This document shows positions 1,471 to 35,086 of a stretch of DNA of 35,331 bases, in pieces. Source of the stretch: Micromonospora sp. HK10 (GTDB lineage Bacteria > Actinomycetota > Actinomycetes > Mycobacteriales > Micromonosporaceae); the NCBI RefSeq assembly GCF_000982955.1, contig NZ_KQ058690.1:1-35331 (forward strand), written 5' to 3'. Numbering within the stretch: position 1 is the stretch's first letter; every line of letters starts with the position of its first letter. The position numbers and the translations under genes were made by a program. The notes beneath the pieces were generated by a model. It did not search any database. It worked only from the letters and a program-made list of their open reading frames with translations, and was not told where the DNA came from.

Positions 1471-2136
1471 GTGCGGGTACTGGTGGCGGACGACGAGCGG
1501 TTGCTGGCGGACACGGTCGCCGAAGGGCTGCGTCGGTTCTCGATGGCGGTCGACGTCTGCTACGACGGGGACGGCGCGCTGGAACGGATCGGGGTCAACC
1601 GGTACGACGTGGCCGTGCTGGACCGGGACATGCCCGGCGCCACCGGCGACGAGGTCTGCCGCAGCCTCGCCGGCTCCGCGGCAGGCACCCGGGTGCTGCT
1701 GCTCACCGCGGCCGCCGGGATCCGGGACCGGGTGATGGGGCTCGGGCTCGGCGCCGACGACTACCTGACCAAGCCGTTCGCCTTCGCCGAACTGGTGGCC
1801 CGGGTGCAGGCGCTGGGCCGGCGGTCCGCCCCGGCGGTGCCCCCGGTGCTGGAGCGGCACGGGGTGGTGCTCGACGTGGCCCGGCACACGGTAAGCCGGG
1901 ACGGGCGGGCGCTGGGCCTGAGCCCCAAGGAGTTCGCCGTCCTGCACGTGCTGATGCGGGCCGGTGGCGGCGTGGTCAGCGCCGAGGAACTGCTGGAACA
2001 GGCCTGGGACGAGTTCGCCGACCCGTTCACCAACGCGGTCCGGGTCACCGTGATGACGTTGCGCAAGAAGCTCGGCCAGCCGTCGGTCATCCACACGGTG
2101 CCGAAGGCCGGTTACCGGATCGGCGAGCCAGCGTGA
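1471..2136 (+). CDS. OmpR/PhoB-family response regulator (VanR-like position)
   Basis: This is a two-domain response regulator of 221 aa. The receiver domain has the acidic pair D7/D8 (VADDE), phospho-acceptor D51 (VAVLDRDMPG), T79 (LLLT) and K101 (YLTKPF). The C-terminal winged helix (about 130-221) has the usual LSPKEFAVLHVLMRAGG, then VMTLRKKL, then VPKAGYRI signature. The GTG at 1471 is preferred because it places VRVLVADDE at the N-terminus with GGGGGAG upstream; an earlier GTG at 1435 is possible. Its stop overlaps the kinase start by 4 nt (GTGA), so the pair is translationally coupled. The downstream PLP enzyme, ligase and dipeptidase suggest it controls a VanRS-type cell-wall response. 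That role is inferred from context. Confidence 0.88.
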   Translation: MRVLVADDERLLADTVAEGLRRFSMAVDVCYDGDGALERIGVNRYDVAVLDRDMPGATGDEVCRSLAGSAAGTRVLLLTAAAGIRDRVMGLGLGADDYLTKPFAFAELVARVQALGRRSAPAVPPVLERHGVVLDVARHTVSRDGRALGLSPKEFAVLHVLMRAGGGVVSAEELLEQAWDEFADPFTNAVRVTVMTLRKKLGQPSVIHTVPKAGYRIGEPA

Positions 2137-3185
2137 GCCCCCGCCGCCGGGTCCTGCTGGTCGGGGTGCTCGCGCTGCTCGCCGGGTTCCTGCTGCCCAA
2201 CCTGGTCAAGTGGCTGCTCGAACTGGTGTGGTGGCGGGCCCAGCAGTTCTGCGGGCTGGCCACGATCGGCGCGGTGTGCGAACCGGCCCGCCCGTTCGTG
2301 CCGCTGCTGCCCCTGCTCACCGAGCTGGCGCTGCTGGTGGCCGTCGGGGTCGCGGTGTGGGCGGGGGCCCGCTGGTGCCTGCGCCCGGTGCGCGACCTCG
2401 CCGACCCGATCGCCAACCTCGGCCCGCAGAACCTCGGCTACCGGATCCGCCGTCCGGGCCGCGACGAGCTGGCCCGGCTCTCCCGGGCGATCGACGACAT
2501 GATGGACCGGGTCACCGCCGGCTACGAGGGGCAGCGGCGGTTCGCCGCGAACGCCTCGCACGAGCTGCGTACGCCGCTGGCGGTGCAGCGGACCCTGATC
2601 GAGGTGGGCATGGCCCAGTCGCTCACCGGCGAACAGCTCGACCTGCTCACCGCCCAACTGCTGGCCACCAACGAGCGTAACGAGCGGCTCATCGAAGGGC
2701 TGCTCGCGCTCAGCGAGAGCGACCAGGGGCTGCGCTCCGCGACCCCGCAGCGCCTCGACGAGATCGTCGGCACCGTGCTGGCCGCGTACGCGGACCGCGC
2801 CGCCCAGGCCGGGGTCACGGTGGAGAGCCAGCTGGCGCCGCGACTCGTGCCGGGCGAGCGGGTGCTGCTGGAGCGCCTGGTCACGAACCTGGTGGAGAAC
2901 GGGATCAAGTACAACCGGCCGGGCGGTCGGCTCACCGTCACGGTCGGCGGGAACCCGGCGCTCACCGTGGTCAACACCGGCCAGACCGTGCCGGGCGAGG
3001 CGGTCGCCGGGCTCTTCGAACCGTTCCGGCGCCTGGCCCGGGACCGGACCAACCAGGGCGGCGGGGCCGGGCTCGGCCTGGCCATCGCCCGCTCGATCAC
3101 CCAGGCGCACGGCGGCATCATCGCCGCCCGGCCGGGCGAGGACGGCGGCCTACGGGTCGACGTCCAGCTACCCGCCCTGACCTGA
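2133..3185 (+). CDS. Membrane sensor histidine kinase (VanS-like position)
   Basis: This 350-aa sensor kinase partners the upstream regulator. Two hydrophobic segments (about 7-30 and 56-80) flank a short extracytoplasmic stretch of about 30 residues with two cysteines (C40, C49), which could form a disulfide. A HAMP-like linker (LRPVRDLADPIANL) follows, then the HisKA H-box with H143 (ANASHELRTPLA), the N-box (LVTNLVENGIKYN) and the G-box (GGGAGLGLAIARS). The GTG at 2133 overlaps the regulator stop. The tiny sensor loop is like those of kinases that sense cell-envelope events at or in the membrane, VanS proteins included. The signal cannot be read from the sequence. The next gene starts about 100 bp downstream. 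Confidence 0.88.
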   Translation: MSPRRRVLLVGVLALLAGFLLPNLVKWLLELVWWRAQQFCGLATIGAVCEPARPFVPLLPLLTELALLVAVGVAVWAGARWCLRPVRDLADPIANLGPQNLGYRIRRPGRDELARLSRAIDDMMDRVTAGYEGQRRFAANASHELRTPLAVQRTLIEVGMAQSLTGEQLDLLTAQLLATNERNERLIEGLLALSESDQGLRSATPQRLDEIVGTVLAAYADRAAQAGVTVESQLAPRLVPGERVLLERLVTNLVENGIKYNRPGGRLTVTVGGNPALTVVNTGQTVPGEAVAGLFEPFRRLARDRTNQGGGAGLGLAIARSITQAHGGIIAARPGEDGGLRVDVQLPALT

Positions 3186-3286
3186 CCCACCCCGCACCAC
3201 CCTCCGGGAGTCGCCGACACGGCCTCCCGCGATGACCCCTGCCCCGAAACGACCGACGGCGTGCGACGCCGGGAGAGGAGACCGCG

Positions 3287-5503
3287 GTGCCGACCCGTAC
3301 CGATCAATCCGGGCCGCCGGCCGGCCGGCTGCTCTGGGCCGACGTGGCCAAGGGCGCCTGCATCATCCTCGTGGTGCTCTGGCACGTCATCGTCAAGCAC
3401 TACCTGCAGATCGACTGGCGGCTCGACCTGCCGCTGCCGGGCGCCTGGGGGCTGTTCGGCGAGCAACTGCTCCCGCTGCGGATGCCGCTCTTCTTCACCA
3501 TCTCCGGGATCTTCGCGGCGCACGCGGTGGTCCGGCCGTGGCGGGTCGCGACCCGCCCCCGGATCGCCCGCAACCTCTACCTCTACGCCACCTGGCTGCT
3601 CATCCACACCGCCCTGCTGGCCCTCGCACCGGGCTTCCCCACCGACCGCGCCACCAGCCTCGGCGGCCTGCTCGCCCAGCTCACCGTCACCCCTTCCAAT
3701 CTCTGGTACCTGTACGCCCTGGCGCTCTACTTCGCGTTGGCCAAGGCGCTGCGCCGGCTCCACCCGGCGGTGCTGCTGGCCGGCGCGGGCGTGCTCTCCG
3801 CGCTCGCGGCGACCGGCCTGCTGGACGGTCCCGGCAACCGCGGGCAGGTCTACCAGAACCTGGTGTTCTTCCTGGCCGGCGTGCACGCGCGGGGACACCT
3901 TCAGCGCTGGGCGGCGAGCGCCACCGCGCGCCGGCTCGCCGCGGTCGGTGCCGCGTACGCCGCCGTGCTGGCCGGCATGGCGCTGGCCGGGGCCGCGGGC
4001 TGGCCGGGGGTGCGGCTGCTGGTGTCGGCCGTCGCGGTGGCGTTCGGCCTCACCGCGGCGGCCCGGCTGGCGAAGCTTCCGGTGGTCGGGGCGGCGCTGG
4101 CCCGGCTCGGCCGCCGCACCCTGCCGATCTACGTGCTGCACATGCCGGTGCTGGCGCTGCTGCACCGGTTCCTCGCCGGCCCGGTCGCCGAGCTGAACGG
4201 ACCGGGGCGGCTGCTGCTGGCGGCCGGCTATCCGGCCCTGCTCACCGCGGTGGTGCTGGTGCTCAGCCTGGCCGTCCACTGCGGACTCACCGCCGCCGGC
4301 GCGCGCTGGATCTTCGACCTGCCCGGCCGCGCGCGGGCAGACCACCTGCCCCGCCCCGCGCCGGTGGACCACGACCTGCCCCGCCCCGCGCGGGCGGACC
4401 ACGACCCAGAAGGAGAAAGCATGTCCCGCAGCCACGCCCCGGCCCTGCCGGACCGGGCCAGCGTCGAGGAGGCCGCCCGGTGGCTGTCCGGCCGGGTGGT
4501 GCGTACCCCCGTGCTGAACAGCCCGGCGATCGACCGGCTGGCCGGCGCCCGGATCCTGCTGAAGGCGGAGAACCTCCAGACCGGGGGCTCCTACAAGATG
4601 CGCGGCGCGATGCTCGCGGTGGGTCGGCTCGCCGCCGCCGGCCACCACGGGGTGGTGGCGCAGAGCACCGGCAACCACGCGGTGGCGGTGGCCCTCGCCG
4701 CCCGCCGGCACGGCCTGGCCGCGACCGTGGTGCTGCCGGTCGACGCCGCGCCGGTCAAGGTGGCCCGGGCCCGGGCGGCCGGGGCGCGGGTCGTCCTGGC
4801 CGGCACCAGCGTCGAGGAGCGGCTGGCCGCCGCCCGCCAGGTCGCCGACACCGCCGGTCACCCGCTGGTCGACGCGTACGACCACCCGGACGTGGTGGCC
4901 GGGCAGGGCAGCGCCAGCCTGGAGCTGATCGAGGAGGCGGCGCGCGCCGGCACCCCGCTGGACGCGCTCGTGGTGCCGGTGGGCGGGGGCGGCGGCGTGG
5001 CCGGGGCCTGCCTGGCCGCCGCCGGCACCCCGATCGAGGTGTACGGCGTCGAGCCGGTCGGCTGCGACTCGCTGGCCCGCAGCCTCGCCGCCGGCCGGCC
5101 CACCCCGGTCGTGCCGGCCGCCACCATCGCCGACGGGCTCCGCCCGGGCTGCGTCGGGGAGCTGCCGTTCGCGGTGGCGCGGGACACCGTGCGGGGCGTC
5201 GTCCGGGTCGACGACGACGCGATCGCCGAGGCGTTCCGGCTGCTGCTGCTGGAGCTGAAGGTGCTCGTCGAGCCGTCCGGCGCGGCCGGGCTGGCCGGCG
5301 CGCTGCGGCTCGCCGCATGGCCGGTCGACCCCGGCTACCTCGGCGGCGCGCTGCGGCCGGACGACCCCGACGGCGGGCGAACAGAGCGGTACCGGACGGT
5401 CGGCGTGGTGCTGACCGGCGGGAACGTCGAGGCGGAACTGGTCGCCCGGTTGACGGCCGGGGTCGTCGCCGACCGGGCACGGATGGAAGGGGTGGCGGCG
5501 TGA
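3287..5503 (+). CDS. Acyltransferase-3 membrane domain fused to fold-type II PLP enzyme (serine racemase/dehydratase-like); VanT-like architecture
   Basis: One uninterrupted frame encodes 738 aa from a GTG at 3287, with GAGAGGAG about 6 nt upstream. Residues 1 to about 345 are a multi-pass (about ten helices) acyltransferase-3 domain starting with ADVAKGACIILVVLWH, as in NolL/fucose O-acetylase-like proteins. A linker of about 30 residues with two LPRPAP/LPRPAR repeats follows. From residue 379 comes a PLP domain: Schiff-base lysine 437 (GGSYKMRGA), an STGNH loop (T461), a glycine-rich phosphate loop (VGGGGGVAG) and an EPVGCDS segment near where serine racemase binds metal. Enterococcal VanT joins the same kind of membrane domain to an alanine-racemase-fold serine racemase; here the PLP fold is unrelated. 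L-Ser to D-Ser racemization at the membrane is inferred. Serine or threonine dehydration is the main alternative. An in-frame ATG with a strong ribosome site (4421) may also yield the PLP domain alone. The stop overlaps the ligase start. Confidence 0.82.
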   Translation: MPTRTDQSGPPAGRLLWADVAKGACIILVVLWHVIVKHYLQIDWRLDLPLPGAWGLFGEQLLPLRMPLFFTISGIFAAHAVVRPWRVATRPRIARNLYLYATWLLIHTALLALAPGFPTDRATSLGGLLAQLTVTPSNLWYLYALALYFALAKALRRLHPAVLLAGAGVLSALAATGLLDGPGNRGQVYQNLVFFLAGVHARGHLQRWAASATARRLAAVGAAYAAVLAGMALAGAAGWPGVRLLVSAVAVAFGLTAAARLAKLPVVGAALARLGRRTLPIYVLHMPVLALLHRFLAGPVAELNGPGRLLLAAGYPALLTAVVLVLSLAVHCGLTAAGARWIFDLPGRARADHLPRPAPVDHDLPRPARADHDPEGESMSRSHAPALPDRASVEEAARWLSGRVVRTPVLNSPAIDRLAGARILLKAENLQTGGSYKMRGAMLAVGRLAAAGHHGVVAQSTGNHAVAVALAARRHGLAATVVLPVDAAPVKVARARAAGARVVLAGTSVEERLAAARQVADTAGHPLVDAYDHPDVVAGQGSASLELIEEAARAGTPLDALVVPVGGGGGVAGACLAAAGTPIEVYGVEPVGCDSLARSLAAGRPTPVVPAATIADGLRPGCVGELPFAVARDTVRGVVRVDDDAIAEAFRLLLLELKVLVEPSGAAGLAGALRLAAWPVDPGYLGGALRPDDPDGGRTERYRTVGVVLTGGNVEAELVARLTAGVVADRARMEGVAA
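4340..4407 (+). repeat. In-frame tandem repeat in the linker (about 2.4 copies of 27-30 bp)
   Basis: GACCAC...CTGCCCCGCCCCGCGC units begin at 4340 (27 bp), 4367 (30 bp) and 4397 (partial). They encode the DH-LPRPA repeats of the linker between the membrane and PLP domains. All steps are multiples of three, so the frame is kept whatever the copy number. Slippage at such a repeat is one way an original stop codon between two genes could have been lost. Confidence 0.75.
4410..4423 (+). promoter_or_regulatory. Internal ribosome binding site and ATG for the PLP domain
   Basis: AAGGAG (4410-4415) lies 5 nt before an in-frame ATG (4421) that begins MSRSHAPALPDRASVEEAA, the natural N-terminus of a stand-alone fold-type II PLP enzyme of 360 aa. 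It is one of the best ribosome sites in the window. This suggests either a recently fused pair of genes or one locus that makes both a membrane-bound and a free PLP enzyme. Confidence 0.65.
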
Positions 5504-6636
5504 GTGGTGCTGCGGTACGGATCGGTGTCCTGTTCGGTGGCCCGTCGGCGGAGCACGAGGTCTCCTGCGCCTCGGCGCTCGGCGTGGCCCGGGCCCTGGC
5601 CGAGCGGGGACACCAGGTGGTCGCGCTCGGGATCGACCGGGACGGGACGCTGCGGCTGGTGCCGGAGCCGGTGCTCGCGGGGCACCTCGCGAGCGTGGCC
5701 GCCGGGCGGGCCATCGACGACCGGCTGCCGGTGACCGGGCCGCCCGTCGAGCTGCGCCGCGGCAGCCGTGCCGGCACGGTCGCGGTCACCGCCGCCGACG
5801 CGCCGGCCAGCCGGTACGTCGAGCTGGACGTGGCCTTCCCGGTGCTGCACGGCCCGTACGGCGAGGACGGCGTGGTGCAGGGGCTGCTCGAATCGCTCGG
5901 CGTGCCGTACGTCGGGTGCGGCATCCTCTCCTCCGCCGTGGGGATGGACAAGGTGGCAATGAAGCGGGCGCTGCGGGCCGAGGGCGTGCCCACCACCCCG
6001 CACGTCTGGTTCGACGCCGCGACCTGGCGGGCCGCCGAGGACCCGGAGAAGCTGGTCGTCGGGCTGCGCTGGCCGCTGTTCGTCAAGCCGGCCCGGATGG
6101 GCTCCTCGATCGGGATCTCCCGGGTGGCCGAGGGCGACGATCTGGTGGCGGCGGTCGAGGAGGCGCTCCGGCACGACCAGGTGGTGCTGGTCGAGCAGGG
6201 GGTGACCGGCCGCGAGTTGGAGTGCGGCGTGCTGGGTGGCTGGCGTCCGGAGGCGTCGGCGGTCGGCGAGGTCCGGGTCACCGGCGGCTGGTTCGACTAC
6301 CGGCAGAAGTACTTCGGCGACGCCGATCCGATGATCGTGCCGGCGCAGCTGCCCGCCGAGATCACCGAGCGAATCCGCGAGCTGTCGGTCCGGGCCTTCA
6401 CGGCGATCGGCGGCTGGGGCCTGGCCCGGGTCGATTTCCTCTACGACGAGACGGCCGGCGAGGTGTTCGTCAACGAGCTGAACACGCTGCCCGGCTTCAC
6501 GGCGCACTCCATGTACCCGAAGGTGTGGGCGGCGTCCGGCGTCGACTATCCCGAGGTGGTGGACCGCCTGGTGGCGCTCGCCTTCGCGCGGCACGCGGCC
6601 CGGCCGGGCGTACGCCCCGCTGGTGGTGCGGCATGA
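5500..6636 (+). CDS. D-alanine--D-alanine ligase family protein (ATP-grasp)
   Basis: This 378-aa ATP-grasp ligase joins D-Ala to D-Ala or another D-amino or hydroxy acid in peptidoglycan precursor synthesis. Visible motifs are the N-terminal GGPSAEHEVS with E18, LHGPYGEDG, MDKVAMK, FVKPARMGSSIG, an omega-loop KY pair (K270, Y271 in FDYRQKY), R310 (ARVDFL) and the metal-site NELNTLPGFT. The C-terminal half reads most like DdlA-type enzymes. The omega-loop tyrosine and L314 are D-Ala-D-Ala-like. D-Ala-D-Lac and VanC D-Ala-D-Ser ligases often have Phe, and VanC2 has Arg, at these places. The GTG start overlaps the upstream stop and the TGA overlaps the dipeptidase ATG. Being in a regulated operon with a dipeptidase suggests an accessory ligase, not the housekeeping Ddl. 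Confidence 0.9.
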   Translation: MSGAAVRIGVLFGGPSAEHEVSCASALGVARALAERGHQVVALGIDRDGTLRLVPEPVLAGHLASVAAGRAIDDRLPVTGPPVELRRGSRAGTVAVTAADAPASRYVELDVAFPVLHGPYGEDGVVQGLLESLGVPYVGCGILSSAVGMDKVAMKRALRAEGVPTTPHVWFDAATWRAAEDPEKLVVGLRWPLFVKPARMGSSIGISRVAEGDDLVAAVEEALRHDQVVLVEQGVTGRELECGVLGGWRPEASAVGEVRVTGGWFDYRQKYFGDADPMIVPAQLPAEITERIRELSVRAFTAIGGWGLARVDFLYDETAGEVFVNELNTLPGFTAHSMYPKVWAASGVDYPEVVDRLVALAFARHAARPGVRPAGGAA

Positions 6637-7268
6637 TCCTGCTCTCCGATCCCCGGGTCGCCGCGGTGTCCAGCCGGGACGACGGCGACCCGCTGGTCGA
6701 CCTGCGGGACCTGCCGGAGCTGCGGCTGGACGGCCGGGCCGCCGACCCGGCCGGGGCGTACGCCCGGGTGCGGCGCGGGGTCGCGGACCGGTTGCTGGCC
6801 GCGCAGCGCGCGCTGCCGGGCGGCCTGCGCCTGCTCGTCGTCGAGGGGTACCGGCCGTACCGGTCGCAGCTGGACATCTTCACCGGCTACCGGGACGAGT
6901 TGCGCCGGCGCTATCCGGACTGGTCGCCGGAGCGGCTGCACCGGGAGACCACCAAGTTCGTCTCGCCGGTCGAGGTGGCGCCGCACAGCACCGGCGGGGC
7001 CGTGGACCTCACCCTCTGTGACGCCGACGGCATCGAGCTGGACATGGGCACGGCGCTTGACGCCACCCCGGAGGAGAGCGCCGACGCCTGCTTCACCGCG
7101 GCCCGGCACATCCCGGTGAGCGCGTGGCGGAACCGGCAGGTCCTGGTGGCCGCGCTGAGCGGGGCGGGGCTGGTGAACTACCCGACCGAGTGGTGGCACT
7201 GGTCCTACGGCGACCGGTACTGGGCGCTGCTCAGCGGAGCGCCGCACACCCGTTACGGTCCGTTGTGA
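6633..7268 (+). CDS. vanX: VanX-type D-Ala-D-Ala dipeptidase (M15D zinc peptidase)
   Basis: This 211-aa cytoplasmic zinc dipeptidase is close to VanX in length (202 aa). The active site can be read directly: R74 (VVEGYRPYR), H118 and D125 (HSTGGAVDLTL), E186 and H189 (EWWHWSYGD). The H-D spacing of 7 and E-H spacing of 3 match VanX (H116/D123, E181/H184). The EWWH form points to M15D dipeptidases rather than VanXY or VanY carboxypeptidases. In resistance clusters VanX removes normal D-Ala-D-Ala so that precursors ending in D-Lac or D-Ser accumulate. The ATG overlaps the ligase stop (ATGA). It is the last gene of the coupled run. No signal peptide is seen. Confidence 0.92.
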   Translation: MILLSDPRVAAVSSRDDGDPLVDLRDLPELRLDGRAADPAGAYARVRRGVADRLLAAQRALPGGLRLLVVEGYRPYRSQLDIFTGYRDELRRRYPDWSPERLHRETTKFVSPVEVAPHSTGGAVDLTLCDADGIELDMGTALDATPEESADACFTAARHIPVSAWRNRQVLVAALSGAGLVNYPTEWWHWSYGDRYWALLSGAPHTRYGPL

Positions 7269-7349: not shown

Positions 7350-8024
7350 GTGAAGGTGCAACGCAGGCACGTGCTGGCGGCGACCGTGGCGCTGGCCGCC
7401 TCGGCGGTCGTCGCGGTGGGTACGGGGATGGGGTTCGCGGAGACCGCCCCGCCCGCGCGGTCGGCCTGTGCGGGGTCGGTGACCTTCTCGGCGGAGGGCG
7501 GCGCGCCGGCGGCGACCAGCGACCGGTTCCCGGTGGGCACCCGGCTGCGGGTGACGAACCTGGACAACGGCCGGGCCGCGACCGTCACGGTGACCGGCCC
7601 GTCGGGCAGCTGCGTGCTGCTCAACGCGGCCGCCATGGACCTGGTCCGCGAGCCGGGCAAGAACGTGATCCGGCGCAACGTGGTGGAACGCCTGGACGCC
7701 GCGGCGCCCGGCGGCGGCACACCGGCCGGCGAGGACATCCGTCCGGGCCGGGCCCAGCCGGCGGCGCGCCCGCCGGCGGCCGGCAGCGTCTGCGCCGGGG
7801 CGATCACCTTCTCGGCCGAGGGCGGCGCGCCGGCGGCCACCAGCGGGCAGTTCCCGGTCGGCACCCGGCTGCGGGTGACCAACCTGGACAACGGCAAGGT
7901 CGCGACCGTCACGGTGACCGGCCCGTCGGGCAGCTGTGTGCTGCTCAACGCCGCGGCCATGGACCTGATCCGGGAGCCCGGCAAGAACCTGGTCCGGCGC
8001 AACACGGTGGAGCTGCTGCGCTGA
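7350..8024 (+). CDS. Secreted protein with two tandem RlpA-like double-psi beta-barrel domains
   Basis: This 224-aa protein has a signal peptide (MKVQRRHVLAATVALAASAVVAVG, cleavage probably near residues 25-31). Two nearly identical domains of about 74 residues follow, starting at C40 and C148, joined by a Pro/Ala/Gly linker. Each contains FPVGTRLRVTNLDNG, then TVTGPSGSCVLLNAAAMDL, as in RlpA/expansin-type double-psi barrels. Each has two cysteines (CAG and GSC) that probably form a disulfide. The DRGP region needed for RlpA lytic transglycosylase activity is replaced by TGPSG, so peptidoglycan binding or a structural role is more likely than catalysis. GTG start with GGGAG upstream. It lies 81 bp downstream of the vanX-like gene and may be separately transcribed. 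Confidence 0.78.
   Translation: MKVQRRHVLAATVALAASAVVAVGTGMGFAETAPPARSACAGSVTFSAEGGAPAATSDRFPVGTRLRVTNLDNGRAATVTVTGPSGSCVLLNAAAMDLVREPGKNVIRRNVVERLDAAAPGGGTPAGEDIRPGRAQPAARPPAAGSVCAGAITFSAEGGAPAATSGQFPVGTRLRVTNLDNGKVATVTVTGPSGSCVLLNAAAMDLIREPGKNLVRRNTVELLR
7467..8012 (+). repeat. Internal duplication of the beta-barrel domain (two copies, 324 bp apart)
   Basis: Bases 7467-7688 and 7791-8012 are near-identical, roughly 90% by eye, including long runs with no difference. The high DNA identity, third codon positions included, suggests a recent duplication or ongoing gene conversion. Confidence 0.85.
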
Positions 8025-15049: not shown

Positions 15050-16282
15050 TCACCAGGTGCCGTCGTCGCGTAACCGGGCGGGTGCCCGGCCGAGCAGCAG
15101 GGTGGTCAGCGCGGCGTCGATGTCCGCGCCGAGGAACCACTCGCCGGCCTGGTCCAGCGCGAAGACCCGGCCCCGCTCGTCGACCGCGATAATGCTGTCG
15201 CCGCGCTCGGTGCCCAGCGGAAACAGCCGTACGCCGAGCACCGCGCCGAAGTCGGCGAGCGTGTCGGCGGTGTGCGCGGCGCGCAGCGGATTGGTGGTGA
15301 AAGGGCTGATCCACACCTGCTGCCCCGGCCCCCGTCTCCGGGTCAGCAACGCGGGAAACGCGGTCAGGGCCCGCTCGGCCGCGAGGAGCGGCTCGTGGCG
15401 GTGGTGTCGCCCGGCGACCTGCCGGGTGTCGGTGATCGCGCCCATGGCCAGCGCCTCGTTGAAGATGCTGTCCTCCCAGCCTGCCTCGACCAGCGCATGG
15501 GAAACCTCGTCGGGAAAACGCCCCGGATGGACGGCGGGTGCCGGTTGCGGATGCCACGCCTCGGTGTAGGCCAGGTCGGACCAGGGCAGCGCGTGGAACC
15601 GCACCAGGAAATTGACGCACGAGTCGCACGGCAGCTCGGCTGAGCCGCCGGCCGGGTCACCGGCCTCCCGGATCCGGAAGAACTCGATGCGGGCAGCCCC
15701 GAGCAGCGCCTGCGCCTCCGCCAGGGTCAGGGCCGGGAGACCTTGGGCGGCGCGCTGATGATCGTGCTCGTGCAGCACGTCGGAGACAACGATCAGCTCG
15801 GCGTGGCGTTCCCCGCCCCGCACCAGCTGCCCGGGGGGCAGTTGGTCCAGATAGGCCCGAACCAGCGGATGGTGATGCAGCTCGATGTCGCCCTTCGCGC
15901 CGTGCGCCACGTGGGTCCGGCCGTCGAGGGTGAGATGCGCGGCTGCCCCGGGGATCGGCAGCCGGGTCAGCTCGCGGAGCAACTGGCTCGCCGGGTCGAC
16001 CGTGCGGGGCGCGCGCGGCGCCGGCGAGCGCCGCTGACGGAACAGCTGCGCCACCGCCGGCAGCGGCAGGCGGGGCCAGCTGGAGACCTCGCCGGTCTCC
16101 TTGTCCACCACGGTCGCGGGCAGGTCGCCGGGGAGCGCCCGGGCCTCCCGAGCGACCCGGGACGTGATCAGGTAGCCGAGGTCGAACTCCTCGACCACCG
16201 GCGTGCAGGGGGACCCGAGGCGTTCGGAGTCGCGCCGCGCCCAGACGGCGGCGAGTTGTTCGGCCTGCTGTCGTTCGATCAC
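15050..16282 (-). CDS. YwqJ-type deaminase joined to a SUKH-like C-terminal domain
   Basis: This 410-aa protein has three parts. Residues 1 to about 110 contain LPATVVDKETGEVSSWPRLPL, an N-terminal segment often seen ahead of such deaminases. Residues 120 to about 235 hold a zinc deaminase core with H160-A161-E162 (RHAELIVVSD) and P218-C219-x-x-C222, the complete HAE/PCxxC ligand set of the YwqJ family. Residues about 250-410 look like a SUKH-3 immunity domain (PDEVSHALVEAGW, then GRVFALDQAGEWFLGADIDAALTTLL). No signal or secretion domain is seen. It faces the toxin operon. It could be an immunity protein with an extra enzyme domain or a remnant toxin-immunity pairing. The GTG start is uncertain. 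Confidence 0.72.
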   Translation of the reverse strand: MIERQQAEQLAAVWARRDSERLGSPCTPVVEEFDLGYLITSRVAREARALPGDLPATVVDKETGEVSSWPRLPLPAVAQLFRQRRSPAPRAPRTVDPASQLLRELTRLPIPGAAAHLTLDGRTHVAHGAKGDIELHHHPLVRAYLDQLPPGQLVRGGERHAELIVVSDVLHEHDHQRAAQGLPALTLAEAQALLGAARIEFFRIREAGDPAGGSAELPCDSCVNFLVRFHALPWSDLAYTEAWHPQPAPAVHPGRFPDEVSHALVEAGWEDSIFNEALAMGAITDTRQVAGRHHRHEPLLAAERALTAFPALLTRRRGPGQQVWISPFTTNPLRAAHTADTLADFGAVLGVRLFPLGTERGDSIIAVDERGRVFALDQAGEWFLGADIDAALTTLLLGRAPARLRDDGTW

Positions 16283-17154: not shown

Positions 17155-20100
17155 GTGAGCCTGCTGCCCAGCCCGATCCCGCATCCGCTCGACCACTGCC
17201 CGTGGGACCTGCCCGGTTGGATCTACGAGGCGTTGGACTGGGTCGTCGGGGTCGAGTGGCCGGACGGGAACGAGCGCGCCGTCTGGGACCTCGCCGACCA
17301 GTGGTACACGGTCTCCGACGTCCTCGCGGTCCCGCGTGCCGACGCGATCGCCGCGGCCGGCGAGGTCCGCGGCGGGTACGGCGGCGTCGGCCTGGTGGCC
17401 GAGGTCTTCGACATCGCCTGGGACAAGGTCGCGAAGGACGAGGACGCGCCGCTGCACGCGGTACTCGCGATCAGCGACGAGATGGGCCGGATCGTCGAGT
17501 CCTGCGGCTGCGACATCGAGGGCGCCAAGCTCGAGGTCTGGATCGAGCTGGGCATCCTCGTCATCGAGCTGCTGTCCCTGGCGGTGGCGACCGTGCTCAC
17601 CCTGGGCGCCGCGTCGCCGGCCGCCGGCGCGGCCGTCACCGCCAGCCGGATGGTGGTGCAACAGATCTTCAAGCGCCTCGTGGCGCAGCTGGCGCGCAAG
17701 GCGATGAAGGACGGCCTCAAGGAGGCGGGCGAGCGGGCCGCCAAGGAGGCCGCCCGCAGCGGCGTACGCCGGTTCGCCCGCCGGGCCGCGATCAGCGGAC
17801 TCGTCGAGGCCGGGCAGGAGGCCGGCACCAGCCTCGCGACCCAGGCGTACCAGAATTCCACCGGACGCCGCGACGGGCTGGACCTGACCGACGTCGGCAC
17901 GTCGGCGCTCGGCGGTTTCGCCGGCGGTGGCGTGGCGCCGCTGGCCGGCCTGGGCCGGCACGCGCACGGCGGCTTCGCCGGGATCGGCGAGCGCTTCGGC
18001 CGCGAGATGGCCGGTGAAACCCTGGCGGAGGGCGCCGCCGGGCTGGCCACCGGGCAGAACGCCTCGCTGGAGGATCTGGCCCGCGCGGCGGTCTCCGGGG
18101 CCAGCGGCTCGGCCACCAGCCAGGCCGACACGGCCCTGCACCACCGCCTCGACGGGAAGCTGGCCGATCTGGCTCTGCCCACCGAACTCGCCTTCCCCGG
18201 TGAGACGCAGGACACCGCCGGGCTCCTTCCGGCGCAACGGACGCTCCATCCGGTCGCCGCGGATGCCCGTCCTGCCGCCCCCGCACAGCCGGAGCCGGCG
18301 GTGGCCGATTTCGCCGCGGCAGACCCGCACCCAGCCGGGCGAGGGGCGAGCCCGTCCTCCGGTGATGCCGGGCAGCTCCTCGCACCTGGCCAATCCGATC
18401 GTGCGGCCGTCGAAGCCGGCCCGTCGTACGCGAGCCCGACGGCCGACCACGAGGCGGCGCTGCCGCGTGTCGGGGCCGCGGCCGCCCCCATCCTCTCCTC
18501 GGTGACCGTCGAGCCGCCCCTCACGGCGGCGTCCCCGGCCAGCATCGGGAGGCCCGGCGGCGTCGCATCGCCGGGAGCCGGCGACCACAGTTCCGGGTCA
18601 GCGCACACCACGTCCGGCGTCGACCTCGGCGGACCGGGCCAGCCGCTACCGGTGCACCCCAACCCCGCCTCCGCGCCGGCACCCGTCACGCAGCCGGCCG
18701 CCTCCGCGCCGGTGGTCCCTGACCGCCCGTCAAACGGTGCGATGCCGGCGCAAGCCGAACCGCTGACCTCCCCTGCACCGCATCAGCACCCGCGACCTCC
18801 GGCCGACCCGCTGGCCGCGCCCCCAGCCTCCGACCCCCGGCCGGTGCCGAACCCGCGGTTCCCGCTGCTGGAGGCACTGGCGCCGCAGCCGTCGCACGAT
18901 CCCGCACCATCTCGGCCGGAGCCCTTCGACCCGCTGCCACCCCGCCGCCCGTCTCCGGAGGAACTGGCCGCCCGTCGGGCGGCCGAGCGGGAGGCCTTTG
19001 AGCGACGCCGGTATCAGGGCAACCTCCGCGCGCAGCGGGAGTGGTTCGAGGACAAGCGGCGGCGCCGCCGGGCGAAGGAACTACGGGAGTCCGCGGAGCG
19101 GCAGTTGGCAGCCGCCCGTTGGCTGCTGCGGCGTGCCTACGAGCTGCGGAACGAGGGACAGCCACAGCTCGCCGACGAACACCATCGGGAGGGACGCCGT
19201 AGGGAGAACTTCTACCATCGGTTCGTCGACGAGGCCGAGGCGACGCTGACCGGCGAGTTCGTGCCGGCTCAGGTGACCGTCGAGGACGACGCCGACTTCT
19301 ACCGGATCAACGACGATGTGGCCGATCTCGCGGTCGGCGCCGTCGAATCGTCGGACCTGTCGGCCCTCACCGGCGACGGCCGCCCGCCGCCGATCGACCG
19401 GTCCCGGCGCTACGGCGTACGCGGAGGGCTGCGTCCGCCGCTCGCGCTGCACCAGACGGACCTGGAGCGGCAGATGCCGCGAAACCCGGACGGCAGCGTG
19501 ATGCGGACCGCCGACCCGCGGCACGGTGGTTGGTTCCAGCTCGCCAACGACGGCGGTCCGCAGGCCGACGCGACCCGGAGCATCAACTGTCTCGACTGCA
19601 CCCTGTCGCTCTACGAGACCTGGGTACACGGCCGGCCCCGGGTCTCCGCACCGCGTACCTTCGACGGCTACCTGATGGGGGACGTCCGCCAACCGGTCGG
19701 CGGCGAGGCGGACGGGCCCCGGCGGGTCGAGGAGATCACCGGCGGCCAGTTCCAGGACCTCTGCCCGGGCCGCGGGCCGACAACCGAGCCGGAGGTACGG
19801 CAACGGGTCGAACACGGCTATCGCGACCTGCACCGTCAGTTGCTGGCGGGTGGTCACGGCAGCTACGCGTTCCTGATCACCGGCTGGCAGAACGGCGCGT
19901 CGCACGCCTGGGTGGCGCTCAACCAGAACGGCACCGTGCTCTACCTCGACCCGCAGCAGGGTGTCGCCTGGGACCAGCCGCTCTACACCCACAGCGGGGT
20001 GCCGCACGACGACAACGTCGTGGGCCTCGACGCGCTGGTGCTCGGCCCGGACGGCCAGCCGATGCCGGTGCCGGGCCGACCGCCCGGCCGCTACAACGTG

Positions 20101-21462
20101 CTCCCCGCACCGCACGAACGGCCCGAGCCGCCGCCGGCACCGGATCTGCCGGCCCCGTACGACGGCGACCAGCCCGCCCCGGACTTCAACCGGGTTCACC
20201 TCCTTGGCGAGGGCACGACTCTGCGCCACGGCGACGTCTCGTCCCCACCTGGCAGCCTGCCCGAGCCGGACCCGGACGACGCCAGGCGGAGAGAGCACCT
20301 CGCCGCCCATGCGGAACGGATCGGAGCCGGGCTCTTCGTCCGGGACGCGATCGCCGCGAGCGCGCACCTCGACGAGGTCTTCGCCGCCGGGGTGACCCCG
20401 GTCGAACTGGCGCACCACGTGGACCCGGCGACGCTGCGGCGGCTGGTCCCGACGCTGGACGAGCCGGCCGCCGCCGACCTGGCCCGGCTGCTCGGTGACC
20501 CACGGGTCCGGCACATGCTCGACCAGGCCTGGGAGGCGCCGCCCCGAGGCGAACCGCTGCTCGCCGAGTTTCTGCTCCACCAGCTCGCCGGGCAACCGGA
20601 CGTGGCGCGGATCGTGCTGTCGGTCCCGGAACTGGGAGACTCACTGCTGGCCAGACCGTTGACGCTCCACAGGTTGGCGGGTCAGCAAGAAGCCCTGGGC
20701 GTTCTCGGTGCCGTCCTCGGCGACCTGGCCGTCCGCGGCCCCGAGGCGTTGACCCACCACGACGATCCCGTGCCGGCTCCGACACCGCTGACCTCGGAAC
20801 AGCGGGCGATAAGTGCTACGGTGCGCAACCGTCGACAGCGACCGCTGCAACTCGGCTTTGACCAGGCACGGAAGGACGATGCCGGCTACCGGCTCGCGTA
20901 TGTGGAGAAGCTGTATGTCGATGCGGCGGAAGCGCAGTTGCAGCTGAATGCCCTCGCCCTGCGGCTGGCGGGGGATTGCGGGCATCCGGGCTGGAGAAGT
21001 GAGCCGAAGAAGCGCGACAGGGTGATGGACAAGCTGATCGAATATCGCAATGACGCTTCTCGGTTGAAGGATCTCGCTGGCGCGAAGGTGGAATTCGACC
21101 GTCTGGACGACATCTATCGAGCGCTGAGCCAGTTGGCCGCCGATCCCTCGGTGCGGATCCTCAGCATCAAAGATCGGTTCCAGTCGCCGCAGGGCAGCGG
21201 ATATCGCGACGTGCTGCTCAACCTGGACATGCCGAACGGGCACGTGGCGGAGCTTCGCCTGCAACTGCGGTCAGTGGAACGGGTGGCCCGGTGGGAGCAT
21301 GCCCTGTACGAGGTCCGGCGAGACCTGGAGACGTTGTCCGAGTCAGTTGGACGGCCCCTGATGAAGGTGGAGGAGGCCATCCGGGACGGTCTGCTCCGCC
21401 GGGCGCAGGACGCCTACCAGAGGGCGCTTGAGGAAGGGCTTGGGGGGACGACGAAACCGTGA
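17155..21462 (+). CDS. Polymorphic toxin: WXG100-like N-terminus, glutamine-deamidase (papain-fold) domain and RelA/SpoT-like C-terminus
   Basis: A 1435-aa protein. Residues 1 to about 125 form the WXG100-like trafficking head (CPWDLPGWIYEALDWVVG). A hydrophobic helix (about 129-161) and Ala/Gly-rich helical segments run to about 340. A Pro/Ser/Ala-rich spacer reaches about 600, then a highly charged helical stretch to about 700. Residues about 790-990 resemble papain-fold toxin glutamine deamidases: C812 and C815 (INCLDCTLSLYETW), H917 (SHAWVALN) and D932 (YLDPQQG). Residues about 1250-1410 resemble the RelA/SpoT nucleotidyltransferase domain: K1339-D1340-R1341-F, G-Y1350-R-D and E1366 (HVAELRLQL). 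The usual synthetase His after GYRD is replaced by Leu. Modification of target glutamines and pyrophosphate transfer to a nucleotide or RNA are predictions. Export by a type VII system is inferred. The stop overlaps the immunity-candidate start. Confidence 0.85.
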   Translation: MSLLPSPIPHPLDHCPWDLPGWIYEALDWVVGVEWPDGNERAVWDLADQWYTVSDVLAVPRADAIAAAGEVRGGYGGVGLVAEVFDIAWDKVAKDEDAPLHAVLAISDEMGRIVESCGCDIEGAKLEVWIELGILVIELLSLAVATVLTLGAASPAAGAAVTASRMVVQQIFKRLVAQLARKAMKDGLKEAGERAAKEAARSGVRRFARRAAISGLVEAGQEAGTSLATQAYQNSTGRRDGLDLTDVGTSALGGFAGGGVAPLAGLGRHAHGGFAGIGERFGREMAGETLAEGAAGLATGQNASLEDLARAAVSGASGSATSQADTALHHRLDGKLADLALPTELAFPGETQDTAGLLPAQRTLHPVAADARPAAPAQPEPAVADFAAADPHPAGRGASPSSGDAGQLLAPGQSDRAAVEAGPSYASPTADHEAALPRVGAAAAPILSSVTVEPPLTAASPASIGRPGGVASPGAGDHSSGSAHTTSGVDLGGPGQPLPVHPNPASAPAPVTQPAASAPVVPDRPSNGAMPAQAEPLTSPAPHQHPRPPADPLAAPPASDPRPVPNPRFPLLEALAPQPSHDPAPSRPEPFDPLPPRRPSPEELAARRAAEREAFERRRYQGNLRAQREWFEDKRRRRRAKELRESAERQLAAARWLLRRAYELRNEGQPQLADEHHREGRRRENFYHRFVDEAEATLTGEFVPAQVTVEDDADFYRINDDVADLAVGAVESSDLSALTGDGRPPPIDRSRRYGVRGGLRPPLALHQTDLERQMPRNPDGSVMRTADPRHGGWFQLANDGGPQADATRSINCLDCTLSLYETWVHGRPRVSAPRTFDGYLMGDVRQPVGGEADGPRRVEEITGGQFQDLCPGRGPTTEPEVRQRVEHGYRDLHRQLLAGGHGSYAFLITGWQNGASHAWVALNQNGTVLYLDPQQGVAWDQPLYTHSGVPHDDNVVGLDALVLGPDGQPMPVPGRPPGRYNVLPAPHERPEPPPAPDLPAPYDGDQPAPDFNRVHLLGEGTTLRHGDVSSPPGSLPEPDPDDARRREHLAAHAERIGAGLFVRDAIAASAHLDEVFAAGVTPVELAHHVDPATLRRLVPTLDEPAAADLARLLGDPRVRHMLDQAWEAPPRGEPLLAEFLLHQLAGQPDVARIVLSVPELGDSLLARPLTLHRLAGQQEALGVLGAVLGDLAVRGPEALTHHDDPVPAPTPLTSEQRAISATVRNRRQRPLQLGFDQARKDDAGYRLAYVEKLYVDAAEAQLQLNALALRLAGDCGHPGWRSEPKKRDRVMDKLIEYRNDASRLKDLAGAKVEFDRLDDIYRALSQLAADPSVRILSIKDRFQSPQGSGYRDVLLNLDMPNGHVAELRLQLRSVERVARWEHALYEVRRDLETLSESVGRPLMKVEEAIRDGLLRRAQDAYQRALEEGLGGTTKP

Positions 21463-31686: not shown

Positions 31687-32574
31687 ATGTTCGCCACGTA
31701 CCTGATCGGCCTTCGGGAGGGCCTGGAGGCCACCCTGGTGGTCAGCATCCTGGTCGCCTTCCTGGTGAAGTCGGACCGGCGCGGCCGGCTGCCGCAGGTC
31801 TGGCTCGGCATCGGCGCGGCCGTGGCACTCTCGGTGCTCTTCGGCTGGCTCATCGAGTACACCTCGACCACCCTGCTGGACACCTCCGACGAACGGGAAC
31901 TCTTCGACGCCGTCACCTCGGTGGCCGCCGTCGTCTTCGTCACCTGGATGATCTTCTGGATGCGCAAGGCCGCCCGGAGTATCGCCGGTGAGCTGCGCGG
32001 CAAGCTCTCCGACGCGCTCGCGGTCGGCGCGTTCGCGGTCGCCGGCATGGCCTTCCTCGCGGTCGTCCGGGAAGGCCTGGAGACCGCCCTGATCTTCTAC
32101 TCCGCGGCGCAGAGCGCCGCCGGCGGCGCCAGCCGGGGGCCGCTGCTCGCCCTGATCGGCGGGATCCTCACCGCCGTGGTGATCGGCTTCCTGCTCTACC
32201 GCAGCGCGCTCAAGCTCAACCTGAGCAAGTTCTTCACCTGGACCGGCGCGCTGCTGATCCTCGTCGCCGCCGGCATCTTCAAGTACGGCGTGCACGACTT
32301 CCAGGAGGCCGGCGTGCTGCCCGGCCTGAACAACCACGCCTTCGACATCTCCTCGGTGCTCGACCCGAGCACCTGGTACGCGGCCCTGCTCAGCGGCATG
32401 TTCAACATCACCGCCACGCCGTCCGTGCTCGAGGCGATCGCCTGGGTGGCGTACGCGGTCCCGGTGCTGCTGCTCTTCCTGCGCAAGCCGGCCGCACCCG
32501 CCCGGCCCGCCGCCCCGCCCGCCGCCCCGCCGGCCGGCACCGACACCCCGGTCACCGCGCCGCAGCGCGCCTGA
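31687..32574 (+). CDS. efeU: Ferrous iron permease EfeU (FTR1 family)
   Basis: This 295-aa permease has about seven membrane helices. It carries the two REGLE iron-path motifs: REGLEATLVVSIL near the N-terminus and VVREGLETALIFYSAA in the middle. The C-terminal tail is Pro/Ala-rich. ATG with GGAG upstream. It is the first gene of efeUOB, imports iron with EfeO and EfeB, and lies behind the iron box. Confidence 0.95.
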   Translation: MFATYLIGLREGLEATLVVSILVAFLVKSDRRGRLPQVWLGIGAAVALSVLFGWLIEYTSTTLLDTSDERELFDAVTSVAAVVFVTWMIFWMRKAARSIAGELRGKLSDALAVGAFAVAGMAFLAVVREGLETALIFYSAAQSAAGGASRGPLLALIGGILTAVVIGFLLYRSALKLNLSKFFTWTGALLILVAAGIFKYGVHDFQEAGVLPGLNNHAFDISSVLDPSTWYAALLSGMFNITATPSVLEAIAWVAYAVPVLLLFLRKPAAPARPAAPPAAPPAGTDTPVTAPQRA

Positions 32575-32603
32575 TGCCCGCCTTCCGAGGAGACACCGCA
32601 CCG

Positions 32604-33737
32604 ATGCGTACCACTCGATTCGTCGTGCCCGCCGCCGCCGGGTTGCTCGCCCTGACCGGCCTGGCCGGCTGCGGAGGCGGCGGGGACCAGCAGGACGCCA
32701 AGGCCGGCGGCCCGATCGAGGTCAAGGCCACCGACAGCGCCTGCGAGGTCGCCGCCACCGAGATCGGGGCCGGCCAGGTCACCTTCAAGGTGACTAACTC
32801 GGGATCCAAGGTCAACGAGTTCTACGTCTACGCCGCCGGTGACCGGGTGATGGGCGAGGTGGAGAACATCGCCCCCGGCCTGAGCCGCGAACTGCGCGTC
32901 GAACTGCCCGCCGGGACGTACGAGACGGCCTGCAAGCCGGGCATGAGCGGGCGCGGCATCCGGGGCGCGCTCAAGGTCAGCGGCACCGCCGCCACCGTGG
33001 CGCCCGACGCCGCCCTCAGCGAGGCCACCGCCAGCTACCAGCGGTACGTGCGGAGCCAGACCGCGGCGCTGCTCACCAGGACCGAGGAGTTCGTGGCCGC
33101 CGTCAAGGCCAACGACGTGGCCAAGGCCAAGGAGCTCTACCCGGTGACCCGCACCTACTGGGAGCGGATCGAGCCGGTCGCGGAGAGCTTCGGCGACCTC
33201 GACCCGAAGATCGACGGTCGGGAGGAGGTCGTCGAGGAGGGCATGGAGTTCACCGGCTTCCACCGGATCGAGAAGGACCTCTGGACCACCGGCGACGTCA
33301 GCAAGGACGGCGCGCTCGCCGACCAGCTGCTCACCGACGTCAAGGCGATCGTGGCGAAGGCCAACGCCGAGAAACTCACCCCCCTCCAGCTCGCCAACGG
33401 CGCCAAGGCGCTCCTCGACGAGGTCGCCAGCGGCAAGATCACCGGCGAGGAGGAGCGCTACTCGCACACCGACCTCTGGGACTTCAACGCCAACCTGGAA
33501 GGTTCCAAGGCGGCCATCGCGGCCCTCCGGCCCGCCCTCGAGCAGCGCTCGCCCGACCTGGTCAAGCAGCTCGACACCGAATTCGGCAACGTCGAGGCCG
33601 CGCTCGGCAAGCACCGCGTCGGCGACGGCTGGAAGCTGCACAACCAGCTCAGCAAGGCCGAGCTGAAGGAGCTGTCGGACAGCATCAACGCGCTGGCCGA
33701 GCCGATCAGCAAGGTTGCCGCCGTCGTCGCTCGATGA
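32604..33737 (+). CDS. efeO: Iron uptake lipoprotein EfeO
   Basis: This 377-aa protein has a lipoprotein signal (MRTTRFVVPAAAGLLALTGLAGC). A cupredoxin-like N-terminal domain (about 45-130, with EFYVYAAGDRVMGEVENI) is followed by a peptidase-M75 imelysin-like domain. That domain has the metal-binding HxxE motif in GFHRIEKDLW and DVKAIVAKANAEKLTP. It feeds iron to EfeU. ATG at 32604 with GAGGAG about 11 nt upstream; an ATG at 32574 overlapping the efeU stop is possible. Directly overlaps the region before efeB. Confidence 0.93.
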   Translation: MRTTRFVVPAAAGLLALTGLAGCGGGGDQQDAKAGGPIEVKATDSACEVAATEIGAGQVTFKVTNSGSKVNEFYVYAAGDRVMGEVENIAPGLSRELRVELPAGTYETACKPGMSGRGIRGALKVSGTAATVAPDAALSEATASYQRYVRSQTAALLTRTEEFVAAVKANDVAKAKELYPVTRTYWERIEPVAESFGDLDPKIDGREEVVEEGMEFTGFHRIEKDLWTTGDVSKDGALADQLLTDVKAIVAKANAEKLTPLQLANGAKALLDEVASGKITGEEERYSHTDLWDFNANLEGSKAAIAALRPALEQRSPDLVKQLDTEFGNVEAALGKHRVGDGWKLHNQLSKAELKELSDSINALAEPISKVAAVVAR

Positions 33738-33760
33738 CGACCCGACCGGGAGGTGACGCG

Positions 33761-35086
33761 ATGAGTGAGCCCAGCGAGCCGGCCGGCGCGGTGCGCGCGC
33801 CGAGCGCCGGGGAGACCGCACGCGGGGTGTCCCGGCGCCGGGCCATCACCCTGGCCGGGGCCGGTGTCGCCGGCGTGGCCGGGGTGGCCGCCGGCGCGGG
33901 CGCCCTCTTCGGCGGGGGACACCAGGCGTCGGCCACCGCGACCGCCGCCGGAGCCGTCCCGTTCTTCGGCGCGCACCAGGCCGGCATCACCACCCCGGCC
34001 CAGGACCGGCTGCACTTCGTCGCGTTCGACGTGATCACCAAGGACCGGGCGAAGCTGGTCGCGCTGCTCCAGGAGTGGACCGCCGCCGCGGCCCGGATGA
34101 CCGCCGGCCAGGACGCCGGGCTGATCGGCGCGGTCGACGGCATGCCGGAGGCCCCGCCGGACGACACCGGCGAGGCGCTGGGGCTGCCCCCGTCCCAGCT
34201 CACCCTCACCGTCGGCTTCGGCCCGACGCTGTTCCGCGACGCCCAGGGCCGGGACCGGTTCGGCATCGCCGGCAGGCGCCCGGCCGCCCTGGCCGACCTG
34301 CCGCGCTTCGCCGGCGACGCGCTCAAGCCGGAGCTCTCCGGCGGGGACATCTGCGTCCAGGCCTGCGCCAACGACCCCCAGGTGGCGGTGCACGCCATCC
34401 GCAACCTGGCCCGGATCGGCATGGGCGTGGTCAGCGTCCGCTGGTCGCAGCTGGGCTTCGGGCGTACCTCGTCGACCACGCGGGGGCAGGCCACGCCGCG
34501 CAACCTGTTCGGCTTCAAGGACGGCACCGCCAACCTCAAGGCCGAGGACGCCGACCTGCTCCGCGAGCAGCTCTGGGCCCAGCCCGGCGACGGCCAGGAC
34601 TGGATGACCGGCGGGTCCTACCTGGTCACCCGCAAGATCCGGATGCTGGTCGAGACCTGGGACCGCAGCCCCCTGGCGGAGCAGGAAATGATCGTCGGGC
34701 GGGCCAAGGGCAGCGGCGCGCCGCTGGGCAGGCGGGCCGAGTTCGACGAGCCGGACTTCGCCGCCAAGGGCGACGACGGCGCGCCGGTGATCGCCGAGAC
34801 CGCGCACGTCCGGCTCGCCCACCCGGACCAGAACGACGGCGCCCGGCTGCTGCGCCGCGGCTACAACTTCGTGGACGGCTCGGACGGGCTGGGCCGGCTC
34901 GACGCGGGACTCTTCTTCATCGCCTACCAGCGCGACCCCCGCCGGCAGTTCGTGCCGATCCAGACCCGGCTGGCCCGCAACGACGCCATGAACGAGTACC
35001 TGCGGCACGTCTCCAGCGGCCTCTTCGCCTGCCCGCCGGGCGTGCGCGACGCCGCCGACTGGTGGGGCCGGGCGCTCTTCTCCTGA
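33761..35086 (+). CDS. efeB: DyP-type heme peroxidase EfeB, Tat-exported
   Basis: This 441-aa protein has a twin-arginine signal (SRRRAITLAGAGVAGVAGVA) and a DyP peroxidase core with the GFKDGTANL motif. Its C-terminus is NFVDGSDGLGRLDAGLFFIAYQRDP. In EfeUOB it handles iron oxidation or heme-iron release outside the membrane. ATG at 33761 with GGGAGG 7 nt upstream; an ATG at 33734 overlaps the efeO stop. A stem-loop follows. Confidence 0.95.
   Translation: MSEPSEPAGAVRAPSAGETARGVSRRRAITLAGAGVAGVAGVAAGAGALFGGGHQASATATAAGAVPFFGAHQAGITTPAQDRLHFVAFDVITKDRAKLVALLQEWTAAAARMTAGQDAGLIGAVDGMPEAPPDDTGEALGLPPSQLTLTVGFGPTLFRDAQGRDRFGIAGRRPAALADLPRFAGDALKPELSGGDICVQACANDPQVAVHAIRNLARIGMGVVSVRWSQLGFGRTSSTTRGQATPRNLFGFKDGTANLKAEDADLLREQLWAQPGDGQDWMTGGSYLVTRKIRMLVETWDRSPLAEQEMIVGRAKGSGAPLGRRAEFDEPDFAAKGDDGAPVIAETAHVRLAHPDQNDGARLLRRGYNFVDGSDGLGRLDAGLFFIAYQRDPRRQFVPIQTRLARNDAMNEYLRHVSSGLFACPPGVRDAADWWGRALFS

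Follow-up and report, generated by a model that had tools for sequence, protein, structure and literature searches.

The first 35,331 nucleotides of contig NZ_KQ058690.1 of Micromonospora sp. HK10 (genome size 6.9 Mb), here termed the window, carry at positions 1471-7268 an operon of five genes, all on the (+) strand. In order, these are a response regulator, a sensor kinase, an open reading frame that joins an acyltransferase-3 (AT3) membrane module to a pyridoxal phosphate (PLP) enzyme of the PALP family, a D-Ala ligase (Ddl-like) and a VanX-like M15 dipeptidase. Gene calls are from Pfam and NCBIfam model scans of the window proteins, and the domain matches confirm the five-gene set named in a preliminary description of this locus. 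The features are as follows.

1471..2136, (+): VanR-like response regulator with a GTG start (PF00072 and PF00486; best NCBIfam model VanR-O, 262.8 bits, below the cut-off of 505).
2133..3185, (+): VanS-like short sensor kinase (HAMP, HisKA and HATPase_c; VanS-O is the second-best NCBIfam model, 142 bits, below the cut-off of 720).
3287..4420, (+): AT3 membrane module (PF01757, amino acids 16-326 of the open reading frame 3287-5503).
4408..4415, (+): Shine-Dalgarno sequence AGAAGGAG inside the AT3-PALP open frame, preceding the in-frame ATG at 4421.
4421..5503, (+): fold type II PLP enzyme (PALP), a predicted amino-acid racemase (PF00291, amino acids 403-676 of the open reading frame 3287-5503; residues K59, T83 and R134).
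5500..6636, (+): Ddl-like D-Ala ligase with Met338 (NF002528, 403 bits, cut-off 262).
6633..7268, (+): VanX-like M15 dipeptidase (M15 motifs APHSTGGAVDLTL, LDMGT and EWWHW).
7350..8024, (+): SCO2207-family/DUF5979 protein; at 28 of the 33 operon loci sampled its gene adjoins the operon.

Overlaps of 4 nt at 2133-2136, 5500-5503 and 6633-6636, together with a gap of 101 nt between the kinase and the AT3 module, can be read directly from the sequence. The preliminary description had placed such overlaps at every joint except that from kinase to fusion, and was accurate in this. It was right also on the lack of vanH: among the window proteins that were scanned, none was recognised as a D-lactate dehydrogenase, and PF02826 proteins exist elsewhere in the genome. 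The host genome holds a single AT3 of the operon kind and a single alanine racemase, besides three Ddl-like genes and one VanX-like gene of full length. The M15 dipeptidase of the window retains its motifs, scores 44.8 of 320 bits with the VanX NCBIfam model and has no signal peptide on inspection by eye. A search for repeats in the sequence upstream of the operon gave one short inverted pair and no direct ones. The gene set is not a novelty; Andreo-Vidal et al. (2021) named the same arrangement in Micromonosporales the "pdx operon" (PMC8698665).

The distribution of the operon was followed in a genus sample of 151 Micromonospora genomes with the AT3-PALP protein as query (threshold 1e-50), and AT3 and PALP states were tallied by hand. 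Matches are present in 84 genomes, of which six have an AT3-racemase locus only and three a more distant PALP only; the operon PALP is found in 75, or about half of the sample. An intact AT3 lies in cis in 31 of these 75, forming one open frame with the PALP in 14 (one truncated by a contig end) and a separate neighbour in 17, and in the other 44 it is missing, broken or reduced to a remnant. Because the cis AT3 trait needs 13 changes on the tree of the 75 PALP and Ddl rows, the module has been gained or lost often. A VanX-like gene is found in 69 of the 75 loci; in five of the other six the stretch stops short of the site where it would lie, three times at a contig end and twice through the choice of stretch.

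The AT3-PALP junction in the window is one uninterrupted open frame. Among 51 in-frame ATG or GTG codons examined in this open reading frame, its first ten codons excluded, ATG 4421 is the sole one with a Shine-Dalgarno-like site, whose eight bases occur once on the (+) strand of the window. Such a site precedes an in-frame ATG or GTG near the PALP start in 73 of the 75 operon genomes: 14/14 with a fused AT3, 16/17 with a separate one and 43/44 without. As for the two misses, one has the same site at another offset (by eye) and one a weak site. Because of the conserved Shine-Dalgarno sequence before ATG 4421, translation of the PALP probably begins also, or mainly, at its own start and yields a free protein; a fusion protein may be made besides. 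The AT3 module, the fold type and the single frame had been correctly described beforehand. The idea that a covalent, VanT-like fusion is essential is rejected on two grounds: a conserved ribosome-binding site serves the PALP alone, and 44 of the 75 operon genomes either lack AT3 or carry it in decayed form.

A PF00291 match assigns the PLP domain to fold type II. Among PDB entries it is most closely related to 1ve5, which bears the label threonine deaminase, to two entries with the label serine racemase (5cvc and 6lut) and to 1v71 (Schizosaccharomyces pombe C320.14). In the alignment all four, 1ve5 included, display Ser and Arg at the equivalents of Ser84 and Arg135 of human serine racemase, and the threonine dehydratase 8y1j displays Ala at both. 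Ser84 is the re-face base of the human enzyme; S84A, S84D and S84N lose racemisation, and S84T is the only S84 mutant reported there in which it is kept, 10-fold weaker (PMC6424897). Among the operon PALPs, K59 (human Lys56) and T83 (human Ser84) are found in 74 of 75 rows, the remaining row being a partial hit in which these columns are missing, and R134 (human Arg135) is found in 75 of 75. Within the host genome an IlvA-like paralogue (L002) has Ala/Ala and L003 has Ser/Arg/Asp. From these alignments the predicted catalytic residues of the PALP are of the racemase type. The site of IlvA/TdcB-type threonine dehydratases was also considered and is not matched, Thr83 standing where 8y1j and L002 have Ala.

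The AT3 module keeps the motif D-x-x-K-x10-H as D19, K22 and H33. The motif D-x-x-R/K-x10-H, defined for AT3 acyltransferases in PMC12423673, is present in 65/65 operon AT3 rows and 41/41 racemase-linked rows, redundant copies counted. The role of the AT3 part of VanT is unsettled (PMC9558356, PMC12423673). Because the acyltransferase residues are kept, the motif suggests that the operon AT3 may acylate a component or precursor of the wall and not simply import serine, which is the alternative.

All 38 AT3 matches away from the PALP, which are from the same genus, were taken as second AT3 loci. A fold III alanine-racemase-type gene adjoins the AT3 in 38/38 and a Ddl is present in 37/38, the remaining locus being truncated by a contig end; a VanX-like gene is present in two. 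One column of the racemase alignment is Tyr in the housekeeping enzyme of the host genome and Asn in enterococcal VanTN (presumably Tyr354 of Alr and Asn696 of VanT), and in these sister loci it is His in 32, Asn in five and a gap in one. A quick, unrooted AT3 tree was made from 112 rows, 97 of them different, with several long branches flagged. The operon AT3s form one branch (SH-aLRT 99), and the nearest branch comprises the AT3s of the AT3-racemase-Ddl loci (98); the two are joined at SH-aLRT 91, not starred. The operon AT3 is kin to the AT3s of loci with a classic fold III racemase, and the direction of capture, as we infer it on a tree that is unrooted, would be from a VanT-like locus to the operon.

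AT3 kin at 44-59% identity are found in other Actinobacteria. A phylum-wide AT3 search at 1e-30 matched one of 396 genomes, the window's own; among the rows listed four candidates were scored, and the count is no proof of rarity. Direct comparison with the membrane part of VanTN was tried and rejected, the score to the profile being 3.9 bits; the two share a Pfam family but are distant. Elsewhere in bacteria the AT3 family is found fused to Ddl (P0040, P0044, P0083), response regulator (P0054) or CapA-like domains (several of P0071-P0082).

Relatives of the PALP occur outside the genus as well. A family search at 1e-60 over 250 genomes found them in 53, and all 16 extra-genus loci were analysed; neither an AT3 nor a fold III racemase was detected in any of them. 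Eleven of the 16 PALPs keep the active-site pattern of the operon enzyme, one with a gap at Arg135 and one with Asn at the 214 position; the others are two of a Phe/Thr sister type and three of a Ser/Arg/Asp type. A full VanX-like gene is present in eight of the eleven loci and a fragment in one. A Ddl adjoins the PALP in nine and can be typed at the discriminating residue, position 338 in the window ligase. Residues of this kind in ligases and racemases we take to set the specificity for Ser, with L282 of DdlB and R322 of VanC as the presumed numbering. Five of the nine ligases are of the Met type, as in the window, and four are of the Gln type, Gln being the residue in 37/37 ligases of the VanT-like loci.

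The four Gln-type loci (L215 group) belong to one other Micromonosporaceae genus, and their PALPs are 62-66% identical to the operon PALP. The ligase tree was rooted at its midpoint, and the branches of VanN and L110 were flagged as long. On it the four ligases nest in the VanT-like lineage, and their nearest kin are fusions of AT3 with Ddl (99/96) and a ligase linked to a racemase (96/90). In three of the four loci a murG paralogue lies beside the Ddl (L215 1981-3159, L217 7861-10950, L218 1540-3795); the two that were scored are both under the NCBIfam murG cut-off. Genes similar to murG occur in vanO-type operons (PMC8698665).

Several observations stand beside these families. At L229 4861-7062 a single protein encoded on a Streptomyces plasmid unites an alanine racemase with a Gln-type Ddl. 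Besides a PALP-Ddl(Gln) pair, genome G599 has a VanX-like gene that comes directly after the gene of an SRYP-type (VanA-like) ligase (L267 6479-8302). Sister PALPs at L103-L105, L223 and L224 are 52-57% identical, display a Phe/Thr/Arg/DPY site and do not adjoin Ddl or VanX; they might provide a racemase outgroup.

It is proposed, at a rough probability of 0.37, that the operon represents a convergent VanT system. In Micromonosporaceae a fold II racemase would have replaced the fold III racemase in D-Ala-D-Ser remodelling at least two times, with capture of an AT3 in the window operon and capture of a ligase in the L215 group. This implies a modular kit of AT3, a racemase of either fold, a ligase and a VanX-like peptidase. 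The PALP would racemise an amino acid; D-Ser would be the most likely product and is the favoured one, at somewhat less than even odds. Cell-wall building blocks would then end differently via D-serine. The AT3 would be a membrane partner of an optional kind, and a single capture from a VanT-like locus would account for it most simply. Racemisation, the identity of the D-amino acid, the specificity of the VanX-like enzyme and induction by cell-wall antibiotics are the steps that we infer. The preliminary description had already pictured a convergent VanT with a swapped racemase. It gains partial support from an AT3 branch that adjoins the VanT-like AT3s, a PALP relative that teams with a VanT-type ligase and residues of racemase type; the fusion is not essential and the ligase is of the Met type.

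The points that weigh against this proposal begin with the ligase. Met338 occupies the discriminating position in 67/67 window-type ligase rows, all of which also have Tyr271. Housekeeping and Listeria Ddl likewise have Met there, and VanN and VanA have Arg. The D-Ser ligase models of NCBIfam score far below cut-off (NF000091, VanG, 277 of 495 bits; NF000207, 249.5 of 520 bits). Met338 argues against a VanC/VanG-like D-Ser ligase and constitutes the main counter-evidence; a D-Ser ligase gains no support from the comparison. A second marker, Tyr216, proved uninformative for D-Ser, as Tyr is found in the ligases compared, VanN included, and VanA alone is without it; Ser150 and Tyr216 (the latter in DdlB numbering) are the residues named in PMC7691350. 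In the PALP, residue 83 is Thr rather than Ser, the change that weakens the human racemase. Thr also occurs without Arg in four other PALPs (L004, L052, L054, L055), so that Thr alone is no mark of a racemase. The divalent-metal site E210/A214/D216 of serine racemase reads E/C/S in the operon PALP.

The neighbourhoods contribute further counter-evidence. Most VanT-like racemases carry His instead of the Asn of VanT. In genome G067 the PALP-Ddl pair (L269 5707-9052) is without a VanRS pair or VanX; the VanT-like locus of the same genome (L095) is AT3-racemase-Ddl-VanX, VanX apparently sitting in only one of its two sets. In two of the eleven extra-genus genomes, G698 and G598, a PALP-VanX pair lacks an adjacent Ddl, and both hold a racemase and a Gln-type Ddl elsewhere. 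Genome G574 has a PALP set and also a fold III set, VanX-racemase-Ddl(Gln) (L266), and there was no simple replacement there; the exchange of racemase folds is not exclusive. Supply of AT3 in trans where it is absent in cis was considered and rejected. A trans AT3 is present in 3/31 genomes with a cis AT3 versus 29/44 without (Fisher p 1e-6), and in 32/75 operon genomes versus 6/76 others (p 6e-7). Both statistics lack phylogenetic independence, and 27 of the 29 trans-only genomes fall in one clade. The association is at clade level only, with three tree changes and at most one discordant pair among seven independent pairs.

The PALP might instead be a dehydratase that degrades serine (either L or D) or a hydroxyaspartate, the operon then protecting or tuning the D-Ala pool with no D-Ser ends, and this appears rather unlikely. 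It is consistent with the 2021 annotation of the enzyme (PMC8698665) and with its best NCBIfam models, both ammonia-lyases (threo-3-hydroxy-L-aspartate ammonia-lyase, 241 bits, and threonine ammonia-lyase, 219 bits) and both below cut-off. The human racemase itself also dehydrates. The Ser/Arg pair is common to serine racemases and hydroxyaspartate dehydratases, and Arg135 positions acidic substrates in the human enzyme (PMC6424897). Yet the Ala/Ala pair is missing, with Thr83 in 74/75 and Arg134 in 75/75 rows, and the Pfam scan detects no ACT domain. The enzyme is accompanied, moreover, by VanRS-like genes, a ligase and a dipeptidase of the VanX-like kind, and in four loci the ligase is of a lineage that otherwise accompanies a fold III racemase. 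Racemisation of another amino acid (e.g. Asp, or epimerisation of Thr), resulting in a D-Ala-D-X precursor in which X is not Ser, is judged very unlikely. The conserved Arg134, the loop D151-A-Y in place of human H-P-N and the aspartate racemase 5ybw among the PDB relatives would fit it. The racemases of the VanT-like partner loci, with His or Asn at the housekeeping Tyr and Asn being the VanTN residue, argue the other way, and we know of no D-Ala-D-Asp ligase in this ligase family.

That the window ligase is an inducible D-Ala-D-Ala paralogue, and the set a backup for cell-wall stress or development that leaves precursor ends unaltered, is regarded as unlikely. The invariant Met338 and Tyr271 favour such a backup. 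Among 25 models listed, general D-Ala-D-Ala ligase models alone are above cut-off for this ligase, and in the tree of the 2021 paper these ligases form a clade that lies among the housekeeping Ddls (PMC8698665). The VanX-like dipeptidase of the same operon would, on the other hand, destroy the product of the ligase, and a further Ddl (L109), 45% identical to the window ligase, is present in the genome anyway. Because a plain D-Ala-D-Ala ligase next to a VanX-like protein would form a futile cycle, a second substrate other than D-Ala is favoured for the window ligase. If the convergent VanT proposal is correct, racemases of two unrelated folds have been used to build the D-Ser branch of glycopeptide-type wall remodelling. 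The AT3 domain of VanT, as yet unexplained, could then be tested in natural variants that have it joined, separate or lost, and the published "dehydratase" label becomes a concrete racemase hypothesis.

The SCO2207-family/DUF5979 gene is found beside the operon also in loci without AT3. Elsewhere in the window, a gene at 15053-16282 (-) encodes YwqJ-deaminase and SUKH-3 immunity domains, and a 1435-amino-acid protein at 17155-21459 (+) has a WXG100-like N-terminus, a glutamine-deamidase papain fold and RelA/SpoT domains; together they represent a polymorphic-toxin-like pair. At 31687-35083 (+), an FTR1 permease, a cupredoxin/imelysin protein and a DyP peroxidase lie in tandem as an EfeUOB-like iron uptake set.

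Among known systems the pdx operon is the closest, as it shares with the window the PALP, the Ddl-like and VanX-like genes, the VanRS-like pair and the genus. The 2021 paper, the one found in the literature on "pdx operon" and Micromonospora, calls the PALP a serine-threonine dehydratase and suggests a likeness to D-Ala-D-Ser remodelling; it also mentions vanRSY loci, rare and from other orders, that contain Ddl and alanine/aspartate racemase genes (PMC8698665). A term search of its main text finds "acyltransferase" in a reference only and neither "membrane protein" nor "transmembrane", and its passages on the operon do not treat VanT-like AT3 sister loci, ligase exchange or active-site residues (PMC8698665). 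No paper on the pairing of AT3 with fold II was found among the listings that the literature searches returned. The operon itself is already published; new are the AT3 kinship, the VanT-like ligase beside a related PALP, the active-site pattern and the PALP's own start.

The window operon resembles the VanC, VanG and VanN operons with VanT in an AT3-type membrane domain beside a PLP racemase-like enzyme, a ligase, a VanX-like peptidase and a VanRS-like pair. The racemase of those operons is of fold III and their ligase has Arg, whereas the window operon has fold type II and Met. The VanT-like loci of Micromonospora and other Actinobacteria, built of AT3, alanine racemase and Ddl, have an AT3 branch that neighbours that of the window operon, and their ligase lineage occurs beside a PALP relative in the four loci of the other genus. 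They differ from the window operon in the fold III racemase with His or Asn, the Gln ligase and a different two-component pair. The vanHAX (D-Ala-D-Lac) layout of VanRS, ligase and VanX is shared, but the window has no adjacent vanH, has Met for Arg in the ligase and has the PALP in the place of the dehydrogenase. Eukaryotic-type fold II serine racemase shares with the PALP the catalytic Lys, the Arg135 equivalent and a hydroxyl residue at the Ser84 position; the PALP differs in having Thr for Ser, altered metal-site residues and Tyr instead of Phe before the Lys.

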